Shown here: positions 12,670 to 19,312 of the stretch, piece after piece
Position numbering within the stretch: the first letter of the stretch is position 1
How the letters are laid out: the number at the start of each line of letters is the position of its first letter
Origin: Gammaproteobacteria bacterium
Lineage (GTDB): Bacteria; Pseudomonadota; Gammaproteobacteria; Ga0077554; Ga007554
Assembly (NCBI GenBank): GCA_023266055.1
Contig: JAHFRW010000031.1
Coordinates: 1-32,418 of the forward strand
Length of the DNA: 32,418 bases
Direction: 5' to 3'
Notes under the pieces: model-generated
Seen by the model: only the letters and a program-made list of their open reading frames with translations
Database searches by the model: none
What the model was told of the DNA's origin: nothing
Position numbers and translations under genes: made by a program

Positions 12670-13530
12670 ATGGAAACACACCCAATGCTTGCCGCATTTC
12701 GTTTTGCACGCCACCTGCTTCGTGGACATACCCTACCGGCTATCACGCTGTTATTGGCTTTCTGCGGGTTCCAGTCCGCCGCATTTGCCGCCGACAACAA
12801 CGCAGCGCCTGCCAACGGCACACGCACCCCTCAGAGCGACCCCCTCGCAGACTTTCTGCGCTCACTGGAACCAAACCTGCAACAGGCCATGAGCGATTCC
12901 TTATTCATATACCGGAATGCACCGCGCATCACTCGGGCCGCTGACCAAAAGCGCCTCATCTTTGGTGAAGCTACCGCGCCCCTGCATTTAATAGAATGGA
13001 CAGATATTCGTTGTCCGCACTGCAAACATCTGGAAAATGCACTGGAAGAAATTCGACGCGTTGCTCCGGCAGGTTCCTGGAGCGAAGAAGCGCGCCATTT
13101 TCCACTCGACTCCGAGTGCAACCCTAATGCTCAGCGCTCTGATGGCAGTGGCGTCAGCTGTCTGGCGGCAAAACTGCAAATTTGTCTGGCGATGGACAAT
13201 TCAAAATCAACGGAATTCAATCGCGTGCGCAGCACACTATTCAAGGAACAACGCGTCCTCACGCGTGACAGAATATGGCAAATTGCCACCACCGACACCA
13301 AGCAACGCAAAAAACTCGAAGCTTGTGTCAAGTCACCACAAACTGCAAAGACACTGCGTGAGGACATTGACTACGCCATACAGCACAAGCTCGAGGGCAC
13401 ACCTCTGGTTGTCATCAATAACCGAAAAGCCACGGCATTACCCGCCATGATTTACACCATGATCATGGTGATGGGCCGAGACAACGACCCTGGCTTCAAG
13501 GTATTACCATCACCCAACACACAACCATAA
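12670..13530 (+). CDS. Periplasmic DsbA/DsbG-like CPHC thioredoxin-fold protein
   Basis: Probable secreted thiol-disulfide oxidoreductase or isomerase. From the ATG at 12670 (AAAGGCGA just upstream) the 286-residue protein has a basic N-region, a hydrophobic core (about 21-36) and a likely signal-peptidase site after SAAFA (about 40). The active site is CPHC at 115-118 in TDIRCPHCKHLENAL, and the cis-proline loop is EGTPLVV near residue 255, as in DsbA-family folds. Two further cysteine pairs could form structural disulfides. A Pro/Asn-rich stretch follows the signal peptide. The frame is also open 45 nt upstream, but that start lacks a ribosome-binding site. DsbA versus DsbC/G subtype cannot be decided by eye. 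The DUF3301 gene follows 28 nt later, so the two may be cotranscribed. Confidence 0.85.
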   Translation: METHPMLAAFRFARHLLRGHTLPAITLLLAFCGFQSAAFAADNNAAPANGTRTPQSDPLADFLRSLEPNLQQAMSDSLFIYRNAPRITRAADQKRLIFGEATAPLHLIEWTDIRCPHCKHLENALEEIRRVAPAGSWSEEARHFPLDSECNPNAQRSDGSGVSCLAAKLQICLAMDNSKSTEFNRVRSTLFKEQRVLTRDRIWQIATTDTKQRKKLEACVKSPQTAKTLREDIDYAIQHKLEGTPLVVINNRKATALPAMIYTMIMVMGRDNDPGFKVLPSPNTQP

Positions 13531-13558
13531 CTGCTGGAATAGTCCGCTACGCTGACAC

Positions 13559-13897
13559 ATGAGTTTTATCGACGGCGTAGTCACCTTACTACTTGCAGGC
13601 TTATGCTGGTTCTGGTGGGATAGCTTAAAGGTTCGGGAGCGGGCCATACGACTCGCCCTGCGCGCTTGCGAAGATGCGAAAATGCAATTGCTTGACCATA
13701 CGGTGGCGCTGAAAAAAATCTGGCTTGGACGCAGACCGAATGGCCGTATCGCTCTGCTGCGATTTTACGAGTTCGAATTCAGCAGCACAGGAGATGAACG
13801 GCACAAGGGATTAATCGTGGTATTAGGCATGGCTCAACAATATGTCACCATGAATCTGCCACAAAACCGCACTATTACCATGGATCAGGATGTTTAA
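13559..13897 (+). CDS. DUF3301 family protein
   Basis: A 112-residue protein with one N-terminal membrane helix (about 5-20, VVTLLLAGLCWFWW) followed by a cytoplasmic or peripheral domain with RERAIRLALRACEDAKMQLLDHTVALKKIWLGRRPNGRIALLRFYEFEFSSTGDERHKG, split here as consecutive conserved blocks typical of DUF3301 proteins of gammaproteobacteria. Its function is unknown. It sits 28 nt after the CPHC protein gene on the same strand. No strong Shine-Dalgarno sequence is visible. A hairpin at 13924-13961 follows the stop. Confidence 0.8.
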   Translation: MSFIDGVVTLLLAGLCWFWWDSLKVRERAIRLALRACEDAKMQLLDHTVALKKIWLGRRPNGRIALLRFYEFEFSSTGDERHKGLIVVLGMAQQYVTMNLPQNRTITMDQDV

Positions 13898-13923
13898 CGC
13901 TCACCCCCATCAAGGTGACAAAG

Positions 13924-13961
13924 AAATCCAGCGACACCTTAATGGCCGTACCGCTGGATTT
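13924..13961. terminator. Hairpin between convergent genes
   Basis: The arms AAATCCAGCG and CGCTGGATTT pair perfectly over 10 bp around an 18-nt loop, between the stop codons of the DUF3301 gene and the convergent 133-residue protein gene. The A/T ends of the stem give short T or A runs on each strand, which fits a bidirectional terminator. Confidence 0.5.
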
Positions 13962-13993
13962 ATGTTTAGACCATATACAACCCGCATAATCAA

Positions 13994-14395
13994 CTAGAAG
14001 CTGTGTGAAACTGTGTTAGTTTTTCTCTTAACCTCTATGAGAGTATTGAGATTGGTGAGTCTGAGGAGACCATAAACTTCATCCCGACCCCAGTCTTCAT
14101 CCAGAACACCCTCACCCAGTAAGACAGAGAATGTCCGACTCTCCGTAGCGGCAGGCGTTGCATCAGGGAAGAAGAAAACATCGGAATACGTAAAGAGAAA
14201 ATCATCCGCGCCGGTAAGCCCCGAATCTTCGCCCCAGAGCTGACACTTCAGCTTGAAAAATCTCGCCCCTGGACACGTCTTCATCTGACATAATTCTAAT
14301 GACGTAAAGTTTACATTACAGCTTACGACAGCCCGTACTGTTTTTTTAGTGTGATCATGTGTCAAAACAAGTTTTGCATTGTTAATTGTAGCCAT
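13994..14395 (-). CDS. Beta-rich protein of unknown function (133 aa)
   Basis: I do not recognise a named family. The 133-residue product MATINNAKLVLTHDHTKKTV... alternates hydrophobic and polar residues in short stretches, as expected of a small beta-sandwich, with no signal peptide or membrane helix. Aromatic and acidic patches stand out (ADDFLFTYSDVFFFPD, LDEDWGRDEVYGLL). A strong AAGGAG lies 7-8 nt upstream of the ATG, so translation is well supported. It lies 374 nt downstream of the SNase-like gene on the same strand; the long gap may hold its own promoter. Repeated linkage to that nuclease in other genomes would be the best clue to its role, and I cannot check that here. Confidence 0.75.
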   Translation of the reverse strand: MATINNAKLVLTHDHTKKTVRAVVSCNVNFTSLELCQMKTCPGARFFKLKCQLWGEDSGLTGADDFLFTYSDVFFFPDATPAATESRTFSVLLGEGVLDEDWGRDEVYGLLRLTNLNTLIEVKRKTNTVSHSF

Positions 14396-14769
14396 GTTTT
14401 ATTACTCCTTATTTAAAGTAGACTGGATATACAAAATCCATCGACAACAAAGATGTTGAGACGATGAGTCATAACAATAAACGAGGAGGCAATACACATC
14501 AGATACAACATGGAACAAGAACAATGGGGATGTATTACATAGAAACCGTCTACGCTCTGTTCGCAAGGACAGATTCAGAATAAGATTTTGAAGACATCAG
14601 CGAATCGGGGGCCGCATAGCGTGCTGCACAGTAGTGTGTCGTAACGGGCACAGGTTGTCCAGACACTGCAAACATAGAGAGTCACTGTGGGACATCCTAG
14701 CCCCTAAAAAACTGCCTCGGCGACACAACTCCATCAGGGATACTGATATTGATAGGCACGCTATCCGCG
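14396..14769. other. 374-nt gap between the SNase-like gene and the 133-aa gene
   Basis: No convincing gene. On the minus strand a 32-codon Cys-containing frame (14695-14597) opens with poor initiation context and is probably chance. The stretch must hold the leader and probably the promoter of the 133-residue protein gene. No clear terminator hairpin for the nuclease gene was found by eye. Confidence 0.4.
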
Positions 14770-15636
14770 CTATTTCTCCATAAACACCAACTGCTCCGGA
14801 GAAACCGTCAGCCTGACCCGCTGACCCGTCACCTTGACCACGTAATCAAACCCGGTCACATGCCCCTGTGGAAGAATTATCACCCGATCCTTTCGTGATT
14901 CAAGGTAAGACCTGAAACCACCCAGAGACAGATCACCATCATTCAGGGCCAGGTAATCCACCACACGACGAAACAGCTTTGGCAAAATAACATTACGCTC
15001 TGTCAGTGCTGTAATATCCTTAACCGTAAAGCCTGAAGTTGTTTTATCCTGGGTCCAGAGGCCTTTACGACGTGCCGATGCTACTGCACGCGTTATTTCC
15101 TGGCGCAGATCAGGGTACATTTTTGAATAATAGGTGGGATATGCTAACCCCTGGCCAAGCATATGGTAGTTGGCACTTTTGCGCAGCAAACTTTTATCTA
15201 GATAAACCTGGCTACCGTCGGCCTGAGCAATATTTCCCTTGAATGCAAAGGCCACACAACGCCCATACATATCTGAAAACCGTGTCAAGACAAATCCAGC
15301 CGTCTGCTGTGGCTGAGCTGAAACTACCCTGTCTCGATCACCGCGCACTACCGTCCTGAAACCAAGAAACTTCAGGAGCTCCTTCGCAGCACCCTGAGCA
15401 AACTGGGGTGGTTGATGCAGCATGCCTAGAGCGACAGAACCCGGTTGGGCTCGAGGCTGATAATGGGTTTCCAGAGTGTCGATACCCTCCAGACGTAATT
15501 GCCCACCACCACTACTATTGGCGCGCACCCCCAGCGTGCGCCACAATTCCGGATTACTCGGATAGAACTTGATGGAATCTCCATCCGGAGCGGCATTGAG
15601 TATGCGATAGTGTCCTTTGATCAGCATCAATGACAT
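14770..15636 (-). CDS. SNase-fold (thermonuclease-like) protein, cytoplasmic
   Basis: Staphylococcal-nuclease-like (OB-fold) protein of 288 residues. Catalytic and Ca-binding positions of the family can be placed: DGD at 18-20, R48, D53-T54 and E56 in RLEGIDTLE, and R126 in MYGRCVAF. The family helix GQGLAYPTYY...ARRKGLW follows. Unlike secreted thermonucleases it has no signal peptide, it carries a Gly/Ser-rich insertion before the RLEGID strand, and it has an extra C-terminal region of about 85 residues (from about 203) ending in a beta-rich KVTGQRVRLTVSPEQLVFME. The ribosome-binding site is strong (GGGAGG). It starts 50 nt after the BTAD regulator gene, so the two are probably one operon. 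Activity on DNA or RNA is predicted from residues only. Confidence 0.82.
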   Translation of the reverse strand: MSLMLIKGHYRILNAAPDGDSIKFYPSNPELWRTLGVRANSSGGGQLRLEGIDTLETHYQPRAQPGSVALGMLHQPPQFAQGAAKELLKFLGFRTVVRGDRDRVVSAQPQQTAGFVLTRFSDMYGRCVAFAFKGNIAQADGSQVYLDKSLLRKSANYHMLGQGLAYPTYYSKMYPDLRQEITRAVASARRKGLWTQDKTTSGFTVKDITALTERNVILPKLFRRVVDYLALNDGDLSLGGFRSYLESRKDRVIILPQGHVTGFDYVVKVTGQRVRLTVSPEQLVFMEK

Positions 15637-15686
15637 GGAATAATCCTCCCTGATAATAAGTTATGATACAGCATCATAGCAAACAC

Positions 15687-18086
15687 TCAATTACCTGCCA
15701 ACGTGCGACGGGCGGCTTCCAGGTGAGATGATGGCGCAATACCCAACAGCGCAGCAAATACCGTGTGGCAACGCTGATACACACTCAACGCTTCAACACG
15801 ACGCCCCTGCCGCTGGTAGCACAACATAAGACGTTGATAAAAAACCTCGGCAAGCGGATCAATTTCCAGCCCTTTTCGATAACTGTTGACCGCCTTTTCC
15901 CATTGATTCGCATCTTCATACTGCCTGGCCATGCGCTCAAGATGACGATGAAACTTGCTGCGCAGTCGTTCGCGTAATGCCAGTGCCCAAGGGTATTCAA
16001 TATCATTACCCAAAAAATGCCCTTGATAAAGATCCAATGCCCTTTCTTCCATCGCGAACCCCCTTGTACCCTGCTGCTGGCCAAAAAACCGCTCCAACAC
16101 CCACACATCTACCCAGCAGCAGGACGTATCCAGAGTAAGATTCCCATCGCGTAAAACAATAACCTTCTCCTGACCCAGCAGTTGGCGTAAACGATGCAGG
16201 GTGATGCGGAATACCTGGTGGCCAGCATCACCCTCAGCATCCGGCCACAGGGCATCAATGAGCTGCACTTCGCTGACATCACGCCCTCCCAGCGCAATCA
16301 ATGCCTTCAGCAGCTGCAAGGGCTTACCTTGAGCCTTACTCTGATCTTTACTCGCAAAATCCAGTGTTTCATTACCCCGCACGATACTGAAACGCCCCAG
16401 CGTATAGATCTTGATAGGCCATGGCCAGGCGGTACATTCCACTGATGGACATGGTGGCTGCAAACCATGAGCCTTAATATAGCTGCGCACGTACTCTACT
16501 TCGATACCATTTTCCAGTGCTTTCTTGCACAGAATGGCCATCACACAGGGCCGCATAACCGGCATATTAATGTAACCATATTTTCTGGCTAGCGCAAAAG
16601 CAGCACTCAATGCGTTAATGCCACGCACATCGGCCATTCCCGACATCCTCGGCAACTGCTCCCTGCGTTGCTCTACCTCCTGTATCCATGCAGTCGTGCC
16701 TTTGGCGGCACTTGTTGTGCGTCCATGAACGACAGAAGAATGCATAAAACGTAATTGTGCTTCAAGCATCAGTGCCAGACAATCAATGTATTTACTGTGC
16801 GCGATATCACGGCAGGCGCGTGTAAACACCAGATGTCGCATCGCTTCACGGTATCCACCATACTCAAAAAGCACCTGTGCCAGAAGCGCATGACACAATG
16901 ACTGCTGGTATGGTGCACCCACTTCTTCGGCCAGAGTGAGCGCAAGCCGGGCATATTCCGTGGCACGCACCAGATCATTGCGGCCCAGACTATCCCATGC
17001 CAGCAAATAGTGATAAAGACTGGCATCAAGGTGTCGATTGGCGATGAGCAGGACACCCATGTGGCCCAGAAACTCCTCCGCAGCCGCATCATTTCCTTTT
17101 ACCAGCGCAGCCTGTGCCCCCAGGGTACACAATTGAAAATCGCCATTGCGCACACCCGCGTTACGGGCTATTTCCAGGCCATCAGCAACCATTTTCAGAC
17201 ACTCTTCCGCCGATACGACCAGTAAACTGTACAGCGCTTGGCTGATATACCACTCCACCTGAATCGCCGCACATGGGCGACTGGCATGTGCCTTGAGAGT
17301 ATGCAGCACCCACGCGGCTGCAGCCGGATCACCTTTTTGAAGATAATGTAAAACCAGACGATTACCCAATTTAAATTGCTGATCAACCTCAAGTCCGGAT
17401 TGCAGCAATTGCCGTGCGCGCTGTTCCCAGAGCGATGCCTCGAAATGCGACGGCTGATGCTGTGTCAACGCATCCAGCATGGCTTGAGTAACCCGTGCTT
17501 CCACATCCAGCGAAGGAAATGCAGGGTGTTGATCCTGGAAATCACGCAATGCCTTTATCCAGTCATCCAACAGGGTAAAATCAGTGCGATTCAATAAAAT
17601 GCTATCGACCACTCCCGCCCAGGCATAGAGCATGCCCCGTACGTCTCGATTCTGCACGTCCCTGGAACAGAACATTACATATGCCCGCACAAGATCGGCA
17701 CGGCCCTGCCCAGGCGCATGCGGCAGACAACAGATACCGCTCCAGTAAAGCAGCCAAGGATTGGTTTCCAGTATCTGGCGCGGCAACCGTTGCAACCTGT
17801 CTTCGAGCGTCTGCATACGCTCCTGGGCCACCAGACCGGGCGCCTGCTGACACACCACCTGAGCCACCGCCTGCCAATCCACGCCTACATCCAGAGCGGC
17901 AAACTCTTGCGCTGCCAATGACCTCCGGCGTCCCACATGCCCTATCCCGGCCATCTCTGGACTCGCATCACGCGCTCCCATACAATGGTGTTCAGAAGAG
18001 AGCGTAGTGAACTCTTCGGGGTGGTTTTCCCGTGGGACATGCGTGATCCATTGATTCATATCAGTTAAAGAAAATGTGCGTTCCAT
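15687..18086 (-). CDS. SARP/BTAD-type transcriptional regulator with TPR-like N-terminus
   Basis: A 799-residue regulator. Residues about 60-545 are helical TPR-like repeats resembling the middle of MalT/LAL regulators. Residues about 558-655 form an OmpR-type winged helix (IYTLGRFSIVRG, LLKALIALGGRDVSEVQLIDALWPD, RITLHRLRQLLG). Residues about 658-797 are a bacterial transcriptional activator domain (ALDLYQGHFLG, WEKAVNSYRKGLEIDPLAEVFYQRLM, GRRVEALSVYQRCH). No Walker A motif or STAND ATPase is present, whereas MalT-like BTAD proteins usually carry one at the N-terminus. It is either a shortened form or senses its signal through the repeats alone. The first 55 residues are low in structure. 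It precedes the SNase-like gene by 50 nt and diverges from moxR across a 251-nt gap. Target genes are unknown. Confidence 0.85.
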   Translation of the reverse strand: MERTFSLTDMNQWITHVPRENHPEEFTTLSSEHHCMGARDASPEMAGIGHVGRRRSLAAQEFAALDVGVDWQAVAQVVCQQAPGLVAQERMQTLEDRLQRLPRQILETNPWLLYWSGICCLPHAPGQGRADLVRAYVMFCSRDVQNRDVRGMLYAWAGVVDSILLNRTDFTLLDDWIKALRDFQDQHPAFPSLDVEARVTQAMLDALTQHQPSHFEASLWEQRARQLLQSGLEVDQQFKLGNRLVLHYLQKGDPAAAAWVLHTLKAHASRPCAAIQVEWYISQALYSLLVVSAEECLKMVADGLEIARNAGVRNGDFQLCTLGAQAALVKGNDAAAEEFLGHMGVLLIANRHLDASLYHYLLAWDSLGRNDLVRATEYARLALTLAEEVGAPYQQSLCHALLAQVLFEYGGYREAMRHLVFTRACRDIAHSKYIDCLALMLEAQLRFMHSSVVHGRTTSAAKGTTAWIQEVEQRREQLPRMSGMADVRGINALSAAFALARKYGYINMPVMRPCVMAILCKKALENGIEVEYVRSYIKAHGLQPPCPSVECTAWPWPIKIYTLGRFSIVRGNETLDFASKDQSKAQGKPLQLLKALIALGGRDVSEVQLIDALWPDAEGDAGHQVFRITLHRLRQLLGQEKVIVLRDGNLTLDTSCCWVDVWVLERFFGQQQGTRGFAMEERALDLYQGHFLGNDIEYPWALALRERLRSKFHRHLERMARQYEDANQWEKAVNSYRKGLEIDPLAEVFYQRLMLCYQRQGRRVEALSVYQRCHTVFAALLGIAPSSHLEAARRTLAGN

Positions 18087-18337
18087 CGTGATGCCCCCTT
18101 TTTCAAAAACTTCTTGTCTAACGATAGGTCAAAAATAATACCAGGGGGGCTTTAATGAAAGGTAATATTCCCCTTTCAGGAGCGATTTATTACCAACCGG
18201 TGCCTAATCCTGCGGTGTCACAAAGCCATCAGGGGATGCCGCAGGACTAACTGGCCTGACAGCGGTATACTTAACCTGAACTTATGGAACATTCGCGTTA
18301 AAAACAGATCTCAAAGTGAAGTCCTGGAAAACTATTC
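18087..18337. promoter_or_regulatory. Divergent control region, BTAD regulator / moxR operon
   Basis: 251 nt between divergent starts. Two dyads are visible: TGAAAGG/CCTTTCA at 18156-18178 (9-nt spacer) and CCTGCGG/CCGCAGG at 18209-18245 (23-nt spacer). Either could be an operator or a leader hairpin. No confident -35/-10 pair was identified. Confidence 0.35.
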
Positions 18338-19312
18338 ATGCAAAACGCACTGACTGCACTTAAAGCACATATCGAAAACACCATTGTCGGACAAGCAATA
18401 CTGGTGGAGCGTTTGCTGATCGCCGTACTGGCTGACGGCCACCTGTTAGTAGAAGGCGTACCCGGATTGGCAAAAACCACAGCAGTACACGCCTTGGCAA
18501 AAGGCATTGCAGCACGTTTCCAGCGTATCCAATTCACTCCCGACCTGATTCCTGGCGACATCACCGGCACGGATATATTTCTACCTAACGAAGGCCGTTT
18601 TCGCTTTGTAGAAGGCCCGATTTTTAACGATATCATCCTCGCGGATGAAATCAACCGCGCCCCCCCAAAAGTGCAGTCGGCATTACTTGAAGCCATGCAG
18701 GAACGTCAGGTGACAGTGGGTGGCGTCACACGCAAACTATCCCCTATATTTCTGGTAATGGCCACACAAAATCCCATTGAACAGGAAGGCACCTACCCTT
18801 TGCCTGAAGCACAGCTTGACCGTTTCTTAATGAAAATAGACCTGGACTATCCAACCCCCACAGAAGAACTGGAAATCCTGCGACGCAATAGCGCGCGCCT
18901 GCAAGGGAGAGCAAATACAGATGTCACCAAGACGCCCCTGCCAACCTCACAAATGGCAGTGCAACACATCACGGAGATTCGGGCGGCAGTAAACCGCATA
19001 CATATGGATCAAATGCTGGAACGCTACATTGTCACTCTGGTAAGCGCCACACGCGACGCAACACGCTGGGACGACCAGGCAGCACGCTGGCTGACGAGGG
19101 GCGCATCACCACGCGCCACGCTGGCGCTGGCACGTGCCGCACGTGCACGTGCCTATTTACGGGAGCGTGACTTTGTCGAACCAGGCGACATCATGGATTT
19201 GGCATATCATGTATTGAACCCCCGCATAGCATTAAGCTTTATGGCACGTGCCGAGGGTGTTACACGTCAACAAGTGATTGCACGTCTGCTTGAAAAAGTG
19301 CCCGCACCGTGA
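18338..19312 (+). CDS. moxR: MoxR-family AAA+ ATPase
   Basis: Chaperone-like AAA+ ATPase of 324 residues. Walker A is GVPGLAKT at 40-47, Walker B LADEIN at 101-106, followed by RAPPKVQSALLEAMQE, then the sensor region VMATQNPIEQEGTYPLPEAQLDRFL. The C-terminal lid contains WLTRGASPRATLALARAARARAY cut into the typical GASPRA motif. MoxR proteins act with VWA-domain partners in envelope stress tolerance, metal insertion or complex assembly. It is the first gene of a six-gene run. Its TGA overlaps the next ATG by one base. No strong ribosome-binding site is seen upstream. Confidence 0.95.
   Translation: MQNALTALKAHIENTIVGQAILVERLLIAVLADGHLLVEGVPGLAKTTAVHALAKGIAARFQRIQFTPDLIPGDITGTDIFLPNEGRFRFVEGPIFNDIILADEINRAPPKVQSALLEAMQERQVTVGGVTRKLSPIFLVMATQNPIEQEGTYPLPEAQLDRFLMKIDLDYPTPTEELEILRRNSARLQGRANTDVTKTPLPTSQMAVQHITEIRAAVNRIHMDQMLERYIVTLVSATRDATRWDDQAARWLTRGASPRATLALARAARARAYLRERDFVEPGDIMDLAYHVLNPRIALSFMARAEGVTRQQVIARLLEKVPAP

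Follow-up and report, generated by a model that had tools for sequence, protein, structure and literature searches.

A stand-alone SNase-family gene, probably of lateral origin, beside a resident BTAD regulator gene in a gammaproteobacterial genus

The explanation that we favour for the locus described here, and which we regard as reasonably probable, is that a stand-alone gene of the Staphylococcal nuclease (SNase) family, probably encoding an active cytoplasmic metal-dependent phosphodiesterase, was acquired laterally and landed beside a resident regulator gene. The locus lies within a 32,418-nucleotide stretch of DNA from a Gammaproteobacteria bacterium (the window; contig JAHFRW010000031.1) and comprises three genes on the minus strand, encoding a 799-aa BTAD regulator (15687–18086), the 288-aa SNase-family protein (14770–15636) and a beta-rich protein of 133 aa with no assigned function (13994–14395; hereafter beta). 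A preliminary description of this DNA, made from its letters alone, had proposed these three open reading frames, and they are borne out as coding and under purifying selection, since change relative to congeners is third-position-biased in each of them and dN/dS is low (0.22/1.63 for the regulator gene, 0.10/1.33 for the SNase gene and 0.06/1.26 for the beta gene). It had also joined the three genes into one module; as a conserved three-gene unit this is not supported, because the linkage fails outside the genus, an extra gene intervenes and beta is missing in one congener.

The 288-aa protein is probably an active, non-secreted nuclease of the SNase fold. Its score against PF00565 (E=6e-4, 20.7 bits) falls just under the curated Pfam cut-off of 21, which is passed by four of its relatives (L007, L008, L010 and L014), and the best Foldseek matches of its structure model, which is only of moderate confidence, are to Staphylococcal nuclease (probability up to 1.00, E of about 6e-3, model pLDDT 62). 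A search of solved-structure sequences with the single protein gave no match, and one with the family profile gave marginal thermonuclease matches only. After a core of approximately residues 1–200 the protein continues into a C-terminal extension, which is about 85 aa long, conserved and marked by a PKLFRR motif. In the family alignment, D20, R48, D53 and E56 are identical in 35/35 sequences, as is R126 in all 33 that are readable at this position; these residues are the equivalents of D21, R35, D40, E43 and R87 of Staphylococcal nuclease. The fold assignment of the preliminary description, its view that the catalytic positions are kept (R48 and E56 in particular) and its remark on the missing signal peptide therefore all stand, the last because no hydrophobic N-terminus was found in the protein. 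By analogy with Staphylococcal nuclease, D20 and D53 would bind a divalent metal, E56 would serve as the general base, and R48 and R126 would stabilise the phosphate. The protein could thus cut single-stranded or accessible DNA or RNA, and its most likely function is that of an intracellular nuclease for nucleic-acid turnover, including that of nucleotides, or under stress. SNase activity usually needs Ca2+, levels of which are low in the cytoplasm, and this counts against reading the protein as a cytoplasmic enzyme.

Compared with Staphylococcal nuclease and other thermonucleases of PF00565, the window protein has the same fold by search and equivalent catalytic residues, but it differs in its lack of a signal peptide, its longer loops and its C-terminal extension. 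An intracellular precedent comes from the plant proteins CAN1 and CAN2, SNase-like DNases which are Ca2+-dependent and anchored to the membrane by N-terminal acylation (PMC3505149). Both they and, by our reading, the window protein have a single SNase domain and are intracellular and not secreted, whereas the acylation anchor and the anticodon-binding-like motif of the CAN proteins (PMC3505149) set them apart from it. Studies of cytoplasmic bacterial SNases of this type were not found in the literature searched. Our searches define a widely scattered subfamily of full-length SNases, the majority of which lack export signals and share the conserved extension at the C-terminus; it is uncharacterised, but of an SNase kind that is already known.

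Full-length relatives of the SNase protein were recovered by tblastn and profile searches in other phyla at 34–57% identity, among them those of one Aphanocapsa and one Thermaceae MAG. The full-length family is present in 15 of the 292 cyanobacterial genomes (the phylum of Aphanocapsa) and 5 of the 111 genomes from the phylum of the Thermaceae MAG, while among 398 sampled Pseudomonadota it was found once, in the window genome itself; the gene is also present in the two sampled congeners of that genome. Further relatives lie on nine plasmid records (from Streptomyces, Kitasatospora, Embleya, Nonomuraea and Methylobacterium) and on one IMG/VR contig. A search of 50,697 phage records gave no match, and with no phage match for either the SNase or the beta gene, a phage origin of the two was rejected. 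In a tree of the sampled set, in which actinobacteria are represented by plasmids only and two cyanobacterial sequences (L067 and L068) stand as fragments, the first profile segment covering only their N-terminal part, the SNases of the window and its congeners nest among cyanobacterial sequences, in a clade of 8 rows with support of 95/90. This nesting suggests that the gene was laterally transferred into the window genus, most likely from a cyanobacterium-like donor. At another locus, one genome of the sister genus carries an SNase remnant (L009, 1400–1560), in which a large internal deletion has brought DGDS up against KVTGQR...EQLVFMEK.

The neighbouring regulator is of a different architecture from SARP/AfsR-type regulators. 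Its N-terminal region is helical and TPR-like, and is followed by a C-terminal winged helix (residues ~587–640; a weak Pfam match to Trans_reg_C, below cut-off) and a BTAD domain (681–795; 7e-19 in Pfam). AfsR chains match residues 583–793, and the winged helix and BTAD are common to this protein and those regulators; the window protein differs in that its DNA-binding part is C-terminal, after the TPR-like region, and in that it has no ATPase, for neither an ATPase domain (Pfam) nor a Walker A motif was found in it, just as the preliminary description had held. Relatives of the regulator are frequent among Gammaproteobacteria (36/229), and a distant one (L110) has an AAA/NACHT-type ATPase match. 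The gene also contains, in frame at about residues 449–484, a copy of a dispersed genomic repeat (16636–16742, minus strand) which is missing from the aligned BTAD proteins of the congeners. In the three congeneric genomes the repeat is matched 24, 42 and 10 times; several copies were checked in the window genome and are located inside other open frames.

Comparison of gene neighbourhoods points to the BTAD gene as the resident beside a MoxR operon and to the SNase gene as the newcomer, because in the sister genus (L108 and L109) an ortholog of the BTAD gene (~49% identity) occupies the same MoxR-side position, divergent from the MoxR gene, without an SNase gene. What follows it there, 138 bp away and on the same strand, is a gene for a 667-aa C1 peptidase/alpha-beta-hydrolase, itself followed in L108 by a gene for an FGE-sulfatase-domain protein. 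Under this scenario the incoming SNase gene would have landed next to a regulator gene already in place. Within the genus, BTAD and then SNase are found in the same order and on the same strand in all three sampled congeners, a closeness which could reflect functional pairing. In one congener (L005) a gene for a 263-aa membrane protein lies between BTAD and SNase, and SNase is followed by a 105-aa ORF and then by beta; in the other (L006) the membrane-protein gene again lies between BTAD and SNase, but beta is missing; the membrane-protein gene is absent from the window locus. Outside the genus, neighbour clustering of 36 loci placed neither a BTAD nor a beta gene beside any SNase relative. 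The notion of a dedicated regulator thus fares no better than that of the module, given the gene that intervenes between BTAD and SNase in both congeners and the different neighbour of BTAD in the sister genus. The preliminary description had named two signs that would speak against its reading: catalytic residues that vary in relatives were not seen, while a lack of linkage in other genomes was, outside the genus.

Beta itself has no family at a meaningful E-value in Pfam, NCBIfam, PADLOC or PHROG. In agreement with its earlier description as beta-rich, it is predicted to be mostly strands in a low-confidence model (pLDDT 61); the beta-sandwich structure matches of this model were weak and uninterpretable. 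The protein is 87% identical in one congener, its gene is absent at the locus in another, and one relative (34%) is found on a Fischerella plasmid, with no match in the 292 cyanobacteria, phages or viral contigs. Both small genes, SNase and beta, are preceded by good Shine-Dalgarno sequences, which for beta upholds the ribosome-binding site noted before. The preliminary description held the regulator and SNase genes to be probably cotranscribed; this may be so, but the 50-nt gap between them has promoter-like sites on the gene strand in a consensus scan, one of them a candidate promoter upstream of SNase (15673–15701, minus strand; TTGGCA-17-TATGAT with an extended -10). The gap between SNase and beta is 374 nt long, and its last part is occupied by a 74-bp element (14436–14509, minus strand), a candidate control region upstream of beta that is conserved in L005 both before beta and before the 105-aa ORF. 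In view of this gap and its element, separate transcription of beta from SNase is plausible. A wider regulon was rejected for the element, as three genomes yielded no additional strong copy (best other match E=0.03). An Rfam scan of 13000–19000 returned nothing.

How far the regulator and its neighbours belong together can be judged in more than one way. One possible but unlikely alternative is a genus-level unit, in which BTAD controls whichever hydrolase lies downstream and the small accessory genes are variable cargo. The constant order and strand of BTAD and SNase, the same-strand hydrolase gene after BTAD in the sister genus and the upstream element common to two small genes of one congener are all consistent with it. 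On the other hand, the contents of the gap vary by the extra membrane gene, promoter-like sites precede SNase, and the 74-bp element stands only before small genes. More speculatively, the MoxR-side locus could be a site for exchangeable cargo, where a BTAD regulator without ATPase drives one cytoplasmic hydrolase or another, namely SNase in the window genus and the C1 peptidase/hydrolase in its sister; this we consider improbable.

Other alternatives concern the SNase protein rather than its setting. That it has no catalytic activity, or leaves the cell by a non-classical route to act outside it, seems decidedly improbable: hydrophobic N-terminal segments in five relatives from the phylum of the Thermaceae MAG do suggest that some members of the family function outside the cytoplasm, but every catalytic residue is invariant, and neither the window protein nor the cyanobacterial members that were checked have such a segment, all of them starting directly at the SNase domain. 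We regard as very unlikely that SNase is a defence or abortive-infection nuclease, a role which the preliminary description had entertained and which our results do not bear out. Such a role could draw on the patchy distribution of the family, on the relative on an IMG/VR contig, on an ORF resembling, by eye, a cytosine methyltransferase near the sister-genus remnant, and on a gene for an M.Eco57I-like methyltransferase that comes directly after SNase, 26–96 bp downstream, in two genomes of the Thermaceae phylum (L008, 8975–10618; L075, 8959–10608). Against it, the three window proteins match no PADLOC model, no defence genes recur around ~30 SNase relatives, and the phage records searched gave no match to the SNase.

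A newcomer nuclease beside a resident regulator remains our preferred reading, and the case serves as a caution that adjacency alone does not make a module. If SNases of this kind are active inside the cell, the question arises of what keeps them from harming it. Elsewhere in the family, in Streptomyces, Kitasatospora (three copies) and, in divergent orientation, Methylobacterium, SNase adjoins a gene for a GMC oxidoreductase and one predicted to encode the small subunit of a sugar dehydrogenase, a linkage that recurs across two phyla (L011, 6001–9035; L021, L015, L019, L083, L014 and L017). On the IMG/VR contig (L082, 6537–9944), genes for DUF2278, SNase, a C1 peptidase and a chagasin-type inhibitor stand in a row, and this peptidase shares ~29% identity with the C1 peptidase whose gene follows BTAD in the sister genus.
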